Shown here in pieces: positions 21,750 through 55,348 of a stretch of 64,000 nt of DNA (within the stretch, counting starts at the first letter, position 1; every line of letters starts with the position of its first letter). Both the position numbers and the translations under genes were made by a program. Below the pieces are notes generated by a model. That model saw only the letters and a program-made list of their open reading frames with translations. It did no database searches and had not been told where the DNA came from. The stretch is taken from positions 930,001 to 994,000 of the forward strand of contig NZ_AP025737.1 of the NCBI RefSeq assembly GCF_023734115.1, written 5' to 3'. This DNA is from Herbiconiux sp. L3-i23. Lineage in GTDB: Bacteria > Actinomycetota > Actinomycetes > Actinomycetales > Microbacteriaceae.

Positions 21750-23876
21750 ATGGCTCGATCGAGCCAGGCACAGATGACCCGCAGCCGCAAGGGCTCGGGG
21801 CGTCCCGCCGACAACGAAGGACTCATCCCCGTCCTCGCCCGCGCCGTGCGCGAGGTCGAGAACGCCGCCCAGCGCGGGGCGGTGAGCCCGTCGAACCGCA
21901 CCAAATTCCAGGTGATCGCCCTCCTGGTGCGCGAAGAGCGCCAGCGCGCCAAGAGCGACCCGTCGCTCTCCGACGGCGACCGCGCCGACATCCTGAAGCG
22001 CCTCGACGGCGTTGCAACGATCCTCGCGAAGACCGCCGCGCGCGACACCTCGCTCATCGCCCTGCTCGAGAGCGACAAGCCGGGCAGCGACGCCGCGCGG
22101 TCGCTGCGTCGACGCATGCTCGAGGACGCCGGATTCGAGGTCGAGGAGGAGGAGCCGGCTCCGGCCCCCGCAGCGCTCGTCACCACGTCCGAGCGTCAGG
22201 TCGTGCCCGATTCGGTGCGGTCGCGGATGCTCGCGAACCCGTTCCTCGCGCCCGACTTCGCGGCCGCCGCGTTCCAGCAGGCGGCGCCCGCTCGGCGCCT
22301 CGCGAACTGGGAGCTGCTCGGCCCGCTGTTCAAGAGCTTCGAGTACGGCTCCGGCGGTAACTCGGCGAGCATGCCGTTGCCCGACCCGATCGACCGCGAC
22401 CGCGTCGCCCCGTCGGGTGCTCCGCTCATGCACCACCAGTCCCGCTTCATCGAGAGCGTCCGCCGCGGTCACCGCAGCTTCCTGCTCGCCGACGAACCGG
22501 GTCTCGGCAAGACCGCGCAGAGCGTCATCGCCGCCTCCGTGGCCGACGCCTACCCGCTGCTCGCCGTCGTGCCCAACGTCGTCAAGATGAACTGGGCGCG
22601 CGAGGTCGAGCTGTGGACCCCGGGACGCCGTGCGACCGTGATCCACGGCGACGGGGAGGATCTCGACGCCTTCGCCGATGTCGTCGTCGTCAACTACGAG
22701 GTGCTCGACCGCCACATGTCGTGGCTCAAGACCCTCGGGTTCAAGGGAATGGTCGTCGACGAGGCCCACTTCATCAAGAACCTCACCTCGCAGCGTTCGC
22801 GCAACGTGCTGTCGCTCGCGTCGAGCCTGCGGGAGCGCAACCGCGACCCGCTGATGATCGCCCTCACGGGTACGCCGCTGATCAACAGCGTCGAAGACTT
22901 CAAGGCGATCTGGCAGTTCCTCGGCTGGATCGACGACAAGGGGCCGCGCCCCATCCTGCTGAACCGCCTCGAGGAGACCGGGCTGACGCCCGCCGACTTC
23001 GGCTTCTTCCCCGAGGCCCGCCAGGCGGTCGTCGACATGGGCATGGTGCGCCGACGCAAGATCGACGTCGCCGCCGACCTGCCGGCGAAGCGGGTCGTCG
23101 ACCTGCCCGTCGAGCTCGACGACGACCTCGGACGCTCCATCCGCCAGGCCGAGAAGGAGCTCGCCGCCCGTCTGTTCGCCCGCTACCGCGCGGTGCTCGA
23201 GAACCGCAAGACGACCCCGTCGAAGGTGTCCCGCGAGGAGCGCGACGAGGTCGTGCGTCTCGTCGCCCAGGCCGAGCTCGACGAGTCGAAGGCGTCGAAG
23301 ACCGGCGAGAACGTGTTCACCATGGTCCGCCGCATCGGTCAGGCCAAGGCCGTGCTCGCCGCCGACTACGCCACCCAGTTGGCGCGCTCGGTCGGCAAGG
23401 TGGTGTTCTTCGCGAAGCACATCGACGTCATGGATCAGGCCGAGGCGACCTTCGCCCGCCGCGACATCAAGACGGTGTCGATCCGCGGCGACCAGACCGC
23501 GTTGCAGCGGCAGAAGCAGATCGACGCGTTCGATCAGGATCCCGAGGTCAAGGCGGCCGTGTGTTCGCTGACCGCCGCCGGTGTCGGCCTCAACCTGCAG
23601 GCGGCGTCGGATGTGGTCCTCGCCGAGTTGTCGTGGACGGCCGCCGAGCAGCAGCAGGCGATCGACCGCGTGCACCGCATCGGCCAGGAGGTCCCGGTGA
23701 CGGCGTGGCGGATCATCGCGGCGCACACCATCGACGCGAAGATCGCGGAGCTCATCGACAGCAAGGCCGGCCTCGCCGCTCGCGCTCTCGACGGCGACGA
23801 CACCGACCTGTCGGCCGAGTCCTCGGTCCAGCTCCTCGCCCTGATGGGCCTCCTCCAGGACGCCATCGGCCGCTGA
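21750..23876 (+). CDS. SNF2-type DEAD/DEAH helicase
   Basis: 708 residues. An N-terminal region of about 210 residues has no motif I recognise. The SNF2 motor then follows: Walker A ADEPGLGKT (about residues 246-254), DEAH box VVDEAHFIKN (about 335), then helicase lobe 2 with RGDQTALQRQKQIDAF, AGVGLNLQAA and the arginine-finger motif AIDRVHRIGQ near residue 640. It should be a double-stranded-DNA translocase in replication or repair, or a defence component; the sequence does not say which. AGGAGG is well placed before the ATG. No nuclease domain or defence partner is adjacent; downstream is a repeat array. Confidence 0.9.
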   Translation: MARSSQAQMTRSRKGSGRPADNEGLIPVLARAVREVENAAQRGAVSPSNRTKFQVIALLVREERQRAKSDPSLSDGDRADILKRLDGVATILAKTAARDTSLIALLESDKPGSDAARSLRRRMLEDAGFEVEEEEPAPAPAALVTTSERQVVPDSVRSRMLANPFLAPDFAAAAFQQAAPARRLANWELLGPLFKSFEYGSGGNSASMPLPDPIDRDRVAPSGAPLMHHQSRFIESVRRGHRSFLLADEPGLGKTAQSVIAASVADAYPLLAVVPNVVKMNWAREVELWTPGRRATVIHGDGEDLDAFADVVVVNYEVLDRHMSWLKTLGFKGMVVDEAHFIKNLTSQRSRNVLSLASSLRERNRDPLMIALTGTPLINSVEDFKAIWQFLGWIDDKGPRPILLNRLEETGLTPADFGFFPEARQAVVDMGMVRRRKIDVAADLPAKRVVDLPVELDDDLGRSIRQAEKELAARLFARYRAVLENRKTTPSKVSREERDEVVRLVAQAELDESKASKTGENVFTMVRRIGQAKAVLAADYATQLARSVGKVVFFAKHIDVMDQAEATFARRDIKTVSIRGDQTALQRQKQIDAFDQDPEVKAAVCSLTAAGVGLNLQAASDVVLAELSWTAAEQQQAIDRVHRIGQEVPVTAWRIIAAHTIDAKIAELIDSKAGLAARALDGDDTDLSAESSVQLLALMGLLQDAIGR

Positions 23877-23891
23877 GCCGCCCACCCTTGT

Positions 23892-24013
23892 TCGCTGAGG
23901 TAGCGGCGAAGGAGCGTACCGAGACCCTCGCGTGGCGCTCTCGATACGCTCGTTCCTCGCTACTCGAGCCGTCTCGATACGGCGCTGGCGCGCCTACTCG
24001 ACGACCGAATGCC
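23892..24013. repeat. Degenerate copies of the 66-bp family
   Basis: Contains diverged half-units such as GAAGGAGCGTACCGAGAC and inverted CTCGATACGCTCGTTCCTCG, directly after the helicase stop. These belong to the same family as the three complete 66-bp units that follow. No ORF is supported from 23877 to 25054. Confidence 0.6.
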
Positions 24014-24079
24014 GGTCGTCGAGTAGCGACGAAGGAGCGTATCGAGACGGGTCGAGTAAGCGAAGCGCATCGAGACCAC
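24014..24079 (+). repeat. 66-bp intergenic repeat, copy 1
   Basis: Two related half-units in tandem, each starting GTCGAGTA and ending ATCGAGAC. Other copies are at 24425-24490 and 24816-24881 in the same orientation and 55201-55266 inverted, all exactly 66 bp. Confidence 0.85.
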
Positions 24080-24098
24080 CGCGCCGAATTCTGACGCC

Positions 24099-24224
24099 CT
24101 GCTCGCTGAGGAGGCCCGCCAGGGCCGTCGCGAAGCGAGGAACATCGCACCCGTCCGAACTTCGAGCACACCGACGGACCCGTGTCGCATCGCGACGGCC
24201 GTGAACGGCCTCCTCAGCGACCAG
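24099..24224 (+). repeat. 126-bp palindromic element, copy A
   Basis: Two 40-base arms (identical or nearly so in all five copies) that pair at about 33 of 40 positions, around a 46-base centre that differs between copies. Each arm also holds its own small palindrome: GGCCC-GCCA-GGGCC on the left and GGCCGT-GA-ACGGCC on the right. Confidence 0.88.
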
Positions 24225-24256
24225 GAGGACGCACCACCCGCCGGAAGCTTGACGAC

Positions 24257-24382
24257 CTGCTCGCTGAGGAGGCCCGCCAGGGCCGTCGCGAAGCGAGGAA
24301 CTTCGCATCTACCCGAGCGTGGAGCGCACCGACGAACCCGTGTCGCATCGCGACGGCCGTGAACGGCCTCCTCAGCGTTCAG
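24257..24382 (+). repeat. 126-bp palindromic element, copy B
   Basis: Exactly 126 bp. Arms match copy A except the last bases (TTCAG for ACCAG); the centre is diverged. With copy A it forms a pair between 66-bp units 1 and 2. Confidence 0.88.
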
Positions 24383-24424
24383 CCGCCCTTCGTATCGCTT
24401 CGCGGGGCGGGCGGGCGACATCCC

Positions 24425-24490
24425 GGTCGTCGAGTAGCGACGAAGGAGCGTGCCGAGACGGGTCGAGTAAGCGAAGCGCATCGAGACCAC
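24425..24490 (+). repeat. 66-bp intergenic repeat, copy 2
   Basis: Same orientation and length as copy 1, with a few substitutions (GTGCCGAGAC for GTATCGAGAC). It begins the second round of the higher-order unit. Confidence 0.85.
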
Positions 24491-24507
24491 AGCGCCGAAC
24501 TTCGACC

Positions 24508-24633
24508 CTGCTCGCTGAGGAGGCCCGCCAGGGCCGTCGCGAAGCGAGAGACCGCACATCCGCCCGAACTTCGAGCACACCGACGGACTCGTATCGCATC
24601 GCGACGGCCGTGAACGGCCTCCTCAGCGACCAG
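24508..24633 (+). repeat. 126-bp palindromic element, copy C
   Basis: Exactly 126 bp. Arms as in copy A; the centre resembles copy A in its second half (ACTTCGAGCACACCGACGGA). Confidence 0.88.
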
Positions 24634-24648
24634 AGGAACTGCAAGCAC

Positions 24649-24774
24649 CTGCTCGCTGAGGAGGCCCGCCAGGGCCGTCGCGATGCGAGGAACTTCCCGT
24701 CCGTCCGAAGTGCGAGCCCACTGACGGACTCGTGTCGCATCGCGACGGCCGTGAATGGCCTCCTCAGCGACCAG
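24649..24774 (+). repeat. 126-bp palindromic element, copy D
   Basis: Exactly 126 bp, with one arm change on each side (GCGATGCGA on the left, GTGAATGG on the right). The left change restores pairing with the right arm at that position. Confidence 0.88.
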
Positions 24775-24815
24775 CCGCCCTCCATATCGCTTTGTGAGTG
24801 AGGCGGACCCTAACC

Positions 24816-24881
24816 GGTCGTCGAGTAGCGACGAAGGAGCGTATCGAGACGGGTCGAGTAAGCGGAGCGCACCGAGACCAC
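24816..24881 (+). repeat. 66-bp intergenic repeat, copy 3
   Basis: Third copy in the same orientation, opening the incomplete third round of the array (66-bp unit plus copy E only). Confidence 0.85.
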
Positions 24882-24899
24882 AGCGCGGAACTTCGACCC

Positions 24900-25025
24900 C
24901 TGCTCGCTGAGGAGGCCCGCCAGGGCCGTCGCGAAGCGAGGAACTTCGCATTTGCCCGAACGTCGGGCGCACCGACGGACTCGTGTCGCATCGCGACGGC
25001 CGTGAACGGCCTCCTCAGCGACCAG
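24900..25025 (+). repeat. 126-bp palindromic element, copy E
   Basis: Exactly 126 bp, arms as in copy A, ending 29 bases before the stop of the convergent peptidase gene. The array thus fills the whole space between two convergent genes. Confidence 0.88.
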
Positions 25026-25054
25026 CCGCCGCCCGTATTGCTCCGCTCAGCGCC

Positions 25055-27160
25055 TCAGTCGGCGAGGCCCAGGACGTCGAGGGTCCAGGCGAGTTCGAAC
25101 GCGCGCTCGCGCCACGCCGAGTAGCGGCCCGAGACGCCGCCGTGACCGGCGCTCATCTCCGTCTTCAGCAGCACCGGGGCGCCCACCTCGCGCAGGCGGG
25201 CCGTCCACTTCGCCGGCTCCACGTAGAGAACGCGGGTGTCGTTGAGGCTCGTGACCGCGAGGATCCGCGGATACTGCTGCTCGGTGACGTTCTCGTACGG
25301 AGAGTACGACTTCATGTACTCGTACACCGACGCGTCGTGCAGCGGGTCGCCCCACTCGTCCCACTCGATCACCGTCAGCGGAAGCGACGGGTCGAGGATC
25401 GAGGTCAGCGGATCCACGAACGGAACGCCCGCCAGGATGCCGGCGAACCGGTCGGCGCCCATGTTCGCGATCGCGCCCATCAGCAGCCCACCGGCGCTGC
25501 GGCCCTCGGCGACCAGCCGGTCGGGTGAGGCGTAGCCTTCGGCGATCAGGTCGTCGGCGGCGGCGATGAAGTCGGTGAACGTGTTCTTCTTCGACAGCAG
25601 CTTGCCCTCGTCGTACCAGGCGCGGCCGAGCTCGCCGCCGCCGCGCACGTGGGCGATGCCGAACATGACGCCCCGGTCGAGCAGCGACAGCCGCGCCGCC
25701 GAGAACGAGGGGTCGATGCTCGCCTCGTACGACCCGTATCCGTACAGCAGGAACGGGGGCGGCGGAGCGGTCGACGGGCGGTCGAACTGCTCGGAGCGGG
25801 CGACCAGCGAGATGGGGATGCGGGCGCCGTCGGGTGCAGTCGCCCACACGCGGCGTTCCTCGTAATCGGTCGGGTTGTACCCGCCGAGCACCGGCTGCCG
25901 CTTGAGCAGCCGCAGTCGGTCGTCGGCGACGACGTAATCGAACACGGTCGCCGGGGTGACGAACGAGCCGTAGCTCAGCCGCAGCGTCGGCTGCGACCAC
26001 TCCGGGTTCGACGAGACGCCGACGGTGAAGAGCGGCTCGTCGAACTGGATCTCGCGCAGACCCTCCGGGGTCAGCAGCCCGAGGCGGGTGAGGCCGTCGC
26101 GACGGAACGACACGGCGGTGAACGACTCGAATGTGTCGACGTCCTCGAGGCGGACCTGCTCGGAGTGCGGCAGCACGACGGTGCGCTCACCGAGCGGAGA
26201 GTCGACCCCGACCTCGACGAGTTCGAAGTTGCGGGCGCCGTCGTTGTGCAGGATCAGCAGGCGGTCGGCGCCGTCCACCACGCGGTGCGCGATCTCGTAC
26301 TCGACGCCCTCGCGTCGCGGCCACACGACCATGAACTCGCCGGTCGGATCGGACGCGTCGAGAATGTGCCACTCGCTGGTCACCTTCGAACCGACCTCGA
26401 GCACGATGTAGCGGCGCGACCGGGTGAGACCCGCGCCGACCCAGAAGCGCTCATCGGGTTCGGTGAAGACGACCACGTCGTCGGCGGGGTCCGTGCCGAT
26501 CTCGTGTCGCAGCACGGTGTCGGGGCGCCACGCCTCGTCAGGCGTCGAGTAGAACGCGAAACGGCCGTCGGGGGAGAGCATCGCCCCCGGCAGCGTGCCT
26601 TCGATGACGTCGGGGCGGTCCTCGCCTGTCAGCAGGTCGCGGAAGCGCAGTTCGTACCGTTCGTCGCCGACCGTGTCGATCGCGTAGGCGAGCAGGGTGC
26701 CGTCGGTCGACACGTCGAAGCTGCCGAGCGAGAAGAACTCGTAGCCCTCGGCCGCCTCGTTGGCGTCGAGCAGGATTTGCTCGCCCTCGATCGGGGTGCC
26801 CGGTTCGACGACGGGCGGGGTCCAGTCGTTCGCGTCGGCGACGGGGCAGCGGCACGAGACCCCGTACTGCTTGCCCTCTTCGCTGCGGGAGTAGTACCAC
26901 CACGAGCCCTCGCGCGTCGGAACTGAGAGGTCCGTCTCCTGGATGCGGGAGCGGATCTCCTCGAAGATCGTCTCGCGGAGCCCCTCGAGGTGCGACAGCG
27001 ACTCGTTCGTCCAGGCGTTCTCGGCGTCGAGATGCGCGATCACCTCGGGATCGTCCTTCGCGCGAAGCCACTCGTAGGGATCGACGACGACGTCGCCGTG
27101 CTGAACGCGTTCGAACGGTACCTGCTTCGCGACGGGCGGCGCCTCGGGAGTGGTGGTCAC
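25055..27160 (-). CDS. Prolyl oligopeptidase family (oligopeptidase B-like) serine peptidase
   Basis: 701 residues, the usual length for S9A oligopeptidase B. An N-terminal seven-blade beta-propeller (about residues 70-410) gates a C-terminal alpha/beta-hydrolase. The nucleophile is in GRSAGG (Ser about 553) and the catalytic His in SAGHGG (about 672). It should cleave short peptides in the cytoplasm, oligopeptidase B after Arg/Lys. The start is GTG at 27160, with TAGCCT 6 bases upstream and no ribosome binding site, so it is probably leaderless. Three 56-bp palindromes lie directly upstream. Confidence 0.92.
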   Translation of the reverse strand: MTTTPEAPPVAKQVPFERVQHGDVVVDPYEWLRAKDDPEVIAHLDAENAWTNESLSHLEGLRETIFEEIRSRIQETDLSVPTREGSWWYYSRSEEGKQYGVSCRCPVADANDWTPPVVEPGTPIEGEQILLDANEAAEGYEFFSLGSFDVSTDGTLLAYAIDTVGDERYELRFRDLLTGEDRPDVIEGTLPGAMLSPDGRFAFYSTPDEAWRPDTVLRHEIGTDPADDVVVFTEPDERFWVGAGLTRSRRYIVLEVGSKVTSEWHILDASDPTGEFMVVWPRREGVEYEIAHRVVDGADRLLILHNDGARNFELVEVGVDSPLGERTVVLPHSEQVRLEDVDTFESFTAVSFRRDGLTRLGLLTPEGLREIQFDEPLFTVGVSSNPEWSQPTLRLSYGSFVTPATVFDYVVADDRLRLLKRQPVLGGYNPTDYEERRVWATAPDGARIPISLVARSEQFDRPSTAPPPPFLLYGYGSYEASIDPSFSAARLSLLDRGVMFGIAHVRGGGELGRAWYDEGKLLSKKNTFTDFIAAADDLIAEGYASPDRLVAEGRSAGGLLMGAIANMGADRFAGILAGVPFVDPLTSILDPSLPLTVIEWDEWGDPLHDASVYEYMKSYSPYENVTEQQYPRILAVTSLNDTRVLYVEPAKWTARLREVGAPVLLKTEMSAGHGGVSGRYSAWRERAFELAWTLDVLGLAD

Positions 27161-54864: not shown

Positions 54865-54915
54865 ATGCCCACTGTGGTCTCGATGCGCTCCTCCGTCGCT
54901 GCTCGACGACCGACA

Positions 54916-55024
54916 CCCGCTCGTTGAGCGAAGCGATACGGAGGCCCGACTCCCACCCTCGGTAGTCGAGTAAGCGAAGCGCACCGAGACGGCTCGAGTA
55001 GCGAGGAACGAGCGTATCGAGAGC
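54916..55024 (+). repeat. Repeat cluster 2, compound unit 2
   Basis: The same 30-bp word (54916-54945), same spacer and a 64-bp unit (54961-55024). The near-identity of units 1 and 2 shows a duplication. An inverted partial copy lies between them (54873-54912) and another after them (55108-55141). Confidence 0.75.
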
Positions 55025-55153
55025 GCAGTTCCGCACTCCGGCAACCGTGGTCTCGCTGCGCTCCGCTCACTCGACCCTGGGCCCACCGCGCACGCTTGCG
55101 CGGGGGACTCGATACGCTCCTTCGTCGCTACTCGACGACCGGGCTAGGACCCG

Positions 55154-55348
55154 CCCGTTGAGCGAAGCGATACGGAGGGACCAGTCGTAACCCCGGAGCT
55201 GTGGTCTCGATGCGCTTCGCTTACTCGACCCGTCTCGATACGCTCCTCCGTCGCTACTCGACGACCGGAGGAACTCCCACCCCCGGTCGTCGAGTAAGCG
55301 AAGCGCACCGAGACGGCTCGAGTAGCGAGGAACGAGCGTATCGAGAGC
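55154..55348. repeat. Repeat cluster 2, third part with inverted 66-bp copy
   Basis: A shortened 26-bp word (55154-55179), an exact-length 66-bp element in reverse orientation (55201-55266) and a third 64-bp unit (55285-55348). The inverted copy matches the elements at 24014, 24425 and 24816 nearly base for base. Confidence 0.8.

Follow-up and report, generated by a model that had tools for sequence, protein, structure and literature searches.

A tandem array in Herbiconiux sp. L3-i23 belongs to a dispersed REPIN-like hairpin family that may be mobilised by DUF222-HNH nucleases

The window, which is the whole stretch of 64,000 nucleotides of Herbiconiux sp. L3-i23 DNA that was analysed, contains an array of repeats at positions 24012-25025 that is flanked by two convergent genes, as the first-pass annotation of this DNA had stated. 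The left-hand gene (21750..23876, + strand) is a 708 aa open reading frame that probably encodes an SNF2-type helicase, and the right-hand gene (25055..27160, - strand) probably encodes an S9 (prolyl oligopeptidase) family peptidase of 701 aa. In a survey of 75 proteins encoded next to the repeats described below, the domains Helicase_C and ResIII were each present in two proteins, the gene not being specified, and Peptidase_S9 was present in one.

The array itself consists of five copies of a 126-bp element, at 24099..24224 (A), 24257..24382 (B), 24508..24633 (C), 24649..24774 (D) and 24900..25025 (E), and of three copies of a 66-nt unit, at 24012..24077, 24423..24488 and 24814..24879, all on the + strand. 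The positions and the length annotated for the five elements (24099, 24257, 24508, 24649 and 24900; 126 bp) hold, and the unit starts at 24012, 24423 and 24814 bear out the proposed order 66-126-126, 66-126-126, 66-126, a higher-order repeat which indicates that local duplication contributed to the array. Element A is an inverted hairpin pair with a left arm of the CTCGC type and a right arm of the GTCGC type. The divergence between the five copies is 0.010 differences per site in the left arms, 0.030 in the right arms and 0.230 in the centres, in agreement with the near-invariant arms and variable centres that had been described. The two arms of an element pair at 33-35 of 40 positions, close to the earlier estimate of about 33, and 35 pairs are formed in element D, where a change in an arm adds one arm-arm pair and thus restores pairing, as had also been noticed.

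A hairpin related to the arms is located at 23967..24008 (- strand), and is the eleventh match in the array region to a covariance model of the arm (E 1.2e-5). Inspected by eye, this hairpin has a mixed form: its outer part resembles the 66-nt unit (GTCGAG..TCGAGAC) and its inner stem is arm-like, which suggests that the arm and the 66-nt unit share one structural class. A second cluster of the 66-nt unit, composed of three cores, is present at 54877..55262 of the window (54877-54907, 55106-55136 and 55232-55262; - strand). In total, the core was matched six times in the window and not once in 100 shuffled sequences.

There is good support for the view that the window array is part of a hairpin family that is dispersed and REPIN-like. 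A BLAST search of the own genome with one element gave 191 matches, many of which span a single arm. A genome-wide covariance-model search, as proposed in the first-pass annotation, was carried out with a 42-nt arm model (R1) built from 106 distinct arms; it yielded at least 150 matches with E values of 3.4e-10 or better, and these fall into 41 clusters among the matches listed. The core of the 66-nt unit occurs 71 times in the genome, in 37 clusters, and a reversed control pattern did not occur at all. The annotation had considered that copies might exist at this locus only; instead, both arms and 66-nt cores are dispersed over the genome. The arm family has a patchy distribution: counting the own genome each time, it was detected by DNA similarity in three of nine genomes of the genus, with the arm model in 18 of 120 genomes of the family, and in at least two of 248 genomes at the order level, where the cut-off was stricter and 26 candidates were scored per genome. 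According to a simple gene caller, 20 of 40 clusters are located in tandem, 18 in convergent and two in divergent gaps, compared with 220, 64 and 66, respectively, for all neighbouring gene pairs in the same stretches. With overlaps of at most 46 nt at gene ends allowed, no cluster among the 40 extends over a gene.

The basic unit of the family is the arm hairpin, and the 126-bp element is an inverted pair of such hairpins around a centre that is kept in length. The hairpin is composed of an outer stem, a step with GAG on the 5' side and CGA on the 3' side, and a GC-rich inner hairpin. The step corresponds to two G-A mismatches and one G-C pair, and GAG and CGA are each at least 90% conserved across the 106 arms. 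Changes on both sides of within-arm pairs were found in 158 cells, against 59.9 in shuffled alignments, and none of 500 shuffles gave a value as high; paired cells amounted to 90.5%, against 77.1% in the shuffles. When the pairing partners were shifted by 1-3 columns as a control, only 2-8 cells with changes on both sides were obtained. Covariation is present in the outer stem (columns 7-42, GC 68 and AU 32; 8-41, CG 68 and UA 32; 4-45, GC 72 and CG 17) as well as in the inner stem (17-29, CG 75 and GC 27; 20-25, GC 50 and CG 45), and 51 of the 106 arms lack pairing at 9-39. Three of five covariation measures exceeded all 500 shuffles; the two that did not were the number of pairs changed on both sides (6 versus 5.9) and that of further pair types (16 versus 15.7). 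These compensatory changes inside the arms support the suggestion in the first-pass annotation that the small hairpins themselves are selected. The RNAalifold consensus of the arms is weak (-2.26 kcal/mol) and its pairing is partly different, and folding by energy alone gave weak structures for three arms of the own genome (z from -1.5 to -2.3, folded as DNA) and none for the 66-nt core (z -0.11). The structural claim therefore rests on the covariation.

The cores of the 66-nt unit retain the GAG/CGA step (71, 71 and 70 of 71), a figure to be read with the fact that they were chosen by a pattern with up to three mismatches, a selection that favours sameness. Their outer stem varies, with CG 53 and TA 13 at the third pair and 13 TT mismatches at the second. 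Judged by eye, the consensus of the 106 arms has no GTAG at either end and no terminal CGTC tag, CGTC being located inside the hairpin.

The stretches fetched from the own genome contain 181 arms. Sixty-eight neighbouring pairs are inverted (+/-), and in 59 of these the spacing is 36-48 nt, which results in a total length of 120-132 bp. The statement that the elements measure strictly 126 bp is thus correct for the window array and does not extend to the genome, where most pairs are 120-132 bp long. Neighbouring arms in the -/+ orientation (n=50) are spaced by -4 to 154 nt, and 22 neighbours have a direct orientation. The 126-bp elements match the plan of REPINs, i.e., an inverted doublet with a spacer that is kept in length above sequence. 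The outer stems of the two arms were identical in none of the 67 inverted pairs compared (one overlapping pair was dropped from the 68), against 21.6 expected by re-pairing, and in none of 25 against 7.6 expected when a single pair per locus was used. Pairs with both outer and inner stems alike, again with one pair per locus, numbered zero versus 1.2 expected, which is not significant. Because the elements possibly stem from few ancestral pairs, we give the pattern of differing arms little weight. A likely cause of it is that long perfect palindromes are avoided.

The convergent helicase/peptidase pair is kept in four relatives, G003, G007, G001 and G005, in which the gap measures about 84, 98, 105 and 213 bp, respectively. 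No match to the arm model was found inside these gaps, the best match outside them having an E value of 0.012, and the 66-nt unit core had at least 12 mismatches of 31 in the four loci. In G004 the gap is about 1.2 kb and has no arm-model match; that of G002 is about 1.27 kb and appears coding by eye, and the locus of G008 stops short of the helicase gene. Given the absence of the array from the same gap in relatives, the array of about 1 kb was most simply gained in this lineage, the relatives being too diverged for base-level junctions at the locus. By eye, the peptidase-helicase gap in relatives contains other inverted repeats, unrelated to those of the window (L224, L227 and L228), an example being GGCTCCCCGCT..AGCGGGGAGCC in G003; the gap behaves as if it attracted or needed hairpins.

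Several known kinds of element were considered and rejected. No stem-loop followed by a T run, as in an intrinsic terminator, was found in 23860-25070 (shuffle mean 0.6), no known Rfam RNA scored above the gathering score in the whole window, and inspection alone led us to discard an integron attC or a CRISPR reading. A search of the own genome for the Y1/RAYT transposase domain (PF01797) gave no match, whereas the same search was positive in five of 14 control genomes. The RAYT/REP-like system envisaged in the first-pass annotation consequently stands in part: a REP-like mobile system is the closest model, and the RAYT enzyme was not found.

The commonest Pfam family among the 75 neighbouring proteins is DUF222, with six members against at most two for all others; two of the six are located at loci that had been fetched via DUF222 (L131 and L132), which leaves four unbiased ones. 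Among the matches listed, a DUF222 open reading frame is found within 300 bp of seven of the 41 arm clusters, which together touch six of the 13 such frames, whereas 0.36 adjacent clusters are expected when 3000 gene gaps are assumed. The corresponding Poisson values, 1e-7 for clusters and 2e-6 for genes, are too small, because DUF222 genes that belong to the same clade are not independent of one another. Within the same distance and the same matches, 34 of the 41 clusters have no DUF222 frame and seven of the 13 frames have no arm-model cluster. For the 66-nt unit, three of 37 clusters adjoin DUF222 frames, at 10, 10 and 177 bp, and the other 34 are more than 300 bp away.

The array has no adjoining DUF222 gene in the window. 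Its left arm is identical at 41 of 42 positions to the hairpin that precedes a DUF222-HNH gene at 788 kb (locus L044), and its first 66-nt unit is identical at 65 of 66 positions to the DNA that begins 3 nt past the stop codon of that gene. The two units of the array are thus the two flank types of one DUF222 gene, which accounts for the joint occurrence of 66-nt and 126-bp units. Hairpins are present on both sides of some DUF222 genes, as R1-type arms at L052 and L132 and as mixed kinds at L131 and L044.

DUF222-HNH genes are multi-copy in the genomes searched here and are related to the mycobacterial 13E12 family. Four scanned proteins belong to Pfam PF02720, and one of them also matches HNH models; the remaining scanned DUF222 proteins show, by eye, the pattern D-H...N...H-H. 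An AlphaFold2 DUF222-HNH model of a relative (mean pLDDT 74) gave no fold match in the PDB at E <= 0.001. Weak matches were obtained to the HNH nickase 4h9d and to ParB/Noc chains, which we do not count as evidence, and the top match of a profile search was part of the Cas9-type nuclease 8d2k (E 0.003).

The DUF222-HNH paralogues lie in separate places and have sharp borders, as for a mobile gene family. Long shared DNA was found for 22 pairs of loci, and in 21 of these the shared block spans DUF222. On the right, the block ends at most 2 bp from the stop codon in seven of the 21 DUF222 pairs and 11-29 bp before it in five more; in L044/L054 it continues some 260 bp past the stop codon, and in the remaining pairs it ends earlier or at the contig end. 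On the left, it starts at most 7 bp from the outer end of a GAG/CGA hairpin in 11 of the 21 pairs, which represent three DUF222 groups, namely clade B (L131, L132 and L055), clade C (L044, L052 and L054) and that of G003 (L117-L120). Blocks that run from the hairpin to the stop codon occur in five of the 21 pairs (L131/L132, L055/L131, L044/L052, L052/L054 and L117/L119) and not in the other 16. The blocks of G005 (L083/L091) and L133/L134 start at another small inverted repeat, that of G001 (L128/L129) at a TGTCGG motif, those of three pairs in G008 at a third repeat or close to it (see below), and those of three L114 pairs within the gene. By eye, no target-site duplication is present at the clade C borders.

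The link between hairpins and DUF222 genes is repeated across genomes and is far from universal. A G003 hairpin, which was chosen from DUF222 flanks, gave 34 matches and none with the reversed control; according to their coordinates, eight of the 34 lie within about 0.6 kb of four of the seven DUF222 domains of that genome. A hairpin of Cryobacterium PH31-AA6, chosen in the same way, gave seven matches (control, none), two of which are located, judging by their coordinates, upstream of the DUF222 loci L153 and L155. Three of eight DUF222 matches in G008 have arms at about 150 bp. Seven genomes of other genera have R1 matches, and in two of them a total of three DUF222 genes have a match at a distance of up to about 1 kb (two in G098 and a partial one in G076); none was found within that distance in G061, G082, G037, G016 and G118, seven of the eight arm matches being listed for G037. 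When stem breaks of 3 nt on either side were counted around 80 DUF222 loci, GAG/CGA did not appear in the top 20 motifs listed, which counts against generality; the count demands five perfect outer pairs, and the G003 form is missed by it. Direct searches for GAG/CGA with at least five outer pairs gave clear hairpins in G000, G001, G008 and Cryobacterium; elsewhere, the hits were scattered and resembled chance matches.

We consider the best single explanation to be that DUF222-HNH mobilises the 126-bp elements, which would be mobile, non-autonomous and REPIN-like, and we assign to it a probability of roughly 45%; binding and movement of the hairpins by the protein are what we infer. The most likely mobiliser would be a nuclease of the DUF222-HNH ('13E12') type whose genes lie at other places in the genome; these genes, present in several copies with the same hairpins at their own ends, would themselves have been copied to new places. 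The protein may recognise the hairpin, perhaps in single-stranded form during replication or repair, and would then cut or copy it into intergenic DNA, after which tandem arrays could expand through slippage or recombination. The hairpin stems vary with compensation, and the GAG/CGA step barely varies. More tentatively, DUF222-HNH proteins might act as the nucleases that mobilise a second actinobacterial class of REP/REPIN, of separate evolutionary origin and marked by the near-invariant GAG/CGA (tandem G-A) step, in which HNH would replace the HUH tyrosine chemistry of RAYT; wherever the DUF222-HNH genes are under SOS control, DNA damage would trigger movement. With a candidate enzyme family and a defined hairpin, the mobility of the palindromes and the function of DUF222 can be tested together in one bind-and-cut assay.

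The main rival, which we regard as doubtful, is that mobile DUF222-HNH genes use the hairpins as landing sites, in a homing-like manner or as insertion sequences do with REPs, and that the hairpins have a separate mobiliser. REPs are described as targets of insertion sequences in the accessible part of PMC1525189, some DUF222 genes have hairpins on both sides (L052, L132, L131 and L044), and site-specific insertion beside a repeat would likewise make a shared block end at that repeat. However, left borders at hairpins recur in three DUF222 groups, namely clades B and C of the own genome and that of G003. In addition, the arm end GCGCGG is common to L044 and L054, as is the contiguous arm-to-gene DNA; this points to joint movement of arm and gene, although this arm end is also present in the L046 array and so is not unique. 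It is also conceivable, and in our judgement unlikely, that the hairpins form an orphan REP/MITE family whose transposase, e.g., a RAYT, was lost or escapes recognition, and which is found near DUF222 genes because both occupy the same tolerant intergenic places. The fact that most arm clusters have no DUF222 neighbour fits this view, as does the report, in the part of PMC3733652 available, of CGTC-tagged REPs without a dedicated transposase. It accounts less well for seven DUF222-adjacent clusters (among the matches listed) where about 0.4 are expected, for the fact that both units of the array are nearly identical to the flanks of a single DUF222 gene, one to each flank, and for the similar situation in G003 and Cryobacterium, the hairpins of which were, as mentioned, selected from DUF222 flanks.

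The enrichment of clusters in convergent gaps, their depletion in divergent ones and the unrelated inverted repeats that relatives carry by eye in the same gap would fit RNA or DNA elements that serve the host and are kept by host selection, such as bidirectional terminators, mRNA stabilisers or nucleoid-protein sites. We consider such a role improbable, as the region 23860-25070 has no stem-loop with a T run, the array is missing from the same gap in four relatives, and the family is present in only three of nine genomes of the genus. Finally, purely local tandem duplication of ordinary intergenic DNA agrees with the 66-126-126 order and is refuted as a full explanation by at least 150 arms in 41 places and 71 cores of the 66-nt unit across the genome; we attach next to no probability to it.

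MITEs of DDE insertion sequences are short, non-autonomous elements whose ends resemble those of the coding element. The array is like them in being made of short non-autonomous elements, and differs in its structured hairpin ends; by eye, no target-site duplication was seen at the clade C borders. The likeness to REPIN/RAYT systems, as far as these are described in the accessible part of PMC3116915, includes inverted REP doublets, a spacer kept in length, an extragenic location, abundance, tandem clusters and one linked gene family. The present family differs from them in that the own genome has no Y1/RAYT match, the unit is a 42-nt hairpin with a GAG/CGA step, the partner gene is DUF222-HNH and all 67 of 67 pairs have arms with differing outer stems. 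REPs are repeats that abound in bacteria, and the available part of PMC3733652 reports one large class without a known mobiliser. The GTAG- and CGTC-tagged REPs presented there are similarly palindromes of 20-40 bp that often lie close together in opposite orientation and in convergent or unidirectional gaps; in contrast to these, the arm ends described here carry neither GTAG nor CGTC, the latter occurring only inside the hairpin. A term look-up in the main text of that paper returned no 'Actino', 'Microbacteri' or 'HNH'.

The REP13E12/13E12 genes of mycobacteria are multi-copy DUF222-HNH genes that are reported to be repeated and to have the character of mobile elements; unlike the present family, they are not tied to dispersed hairpins in the accessible parts of PMC5005354 and PMC10589994. 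The former, as available, places 13E12 genes in the LexA/SOS response and ascribes mobile-element characteristics to them, and DIVE, in the portion of PMC10589994 at hand, lists REP13E12/HNH/DUF222 as mycobacterial repetitive elements. 13E12 genes have also been proposed as parts of a mismatch-repair system (PMC4181829, available in part), and PMC11981726, in its accessible part, does no more than cite a REP paper. Our literature search, which covered few subscription papers, found no published link of hairpins or REPs to DUF222-HNH for actinobacteria.

Some further features were observed near DUF222 genes. By eye, GAAC-N4-GTTC, which we take to be SOS-box-like, is present shortly before the DUF222 start in L163, L152, L171, L172 and L175, and half of it in L164-L166; such sites fit the reported LexA control of the 13E12 family. 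Of 27 loci inspected by eye among the DUF222 loci L143-L177, 16 have TGTCGG.GG roughly 30 nt upstream of the start and 22 have TTC directly in front of the stop codon; these two motifs are possible left and right ends of a mobile DUF222 gene. A third short repeat, approximately CCCGCCCGTTGAGCG(A/C)AGCGA(T/A)ACG.AGGG, occurs near DUF222 genes upstream of L044, in L075-L077 and L115 (G008) and in L108 (G002). It has the same GAG/CGA step, placed around GCGAAGC, an ultra-stable DNA mini-hairpin. Directly behind a DUF222 gene of G098 (L231:3011-3110), a 34-nt GGTCGAG..CGAGACC hairpin is located by eye within a longer GCTCGTTGAGG..AACGAGC hairpin, an arrangement that resembles a nested insertion. 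The gene that adjoins an eight-arm cluster at L041:5640-5984 starts with MKKGWVYILECSDATLYVGS, which resembles a GIY-YIG (UPF0213) nuclease.
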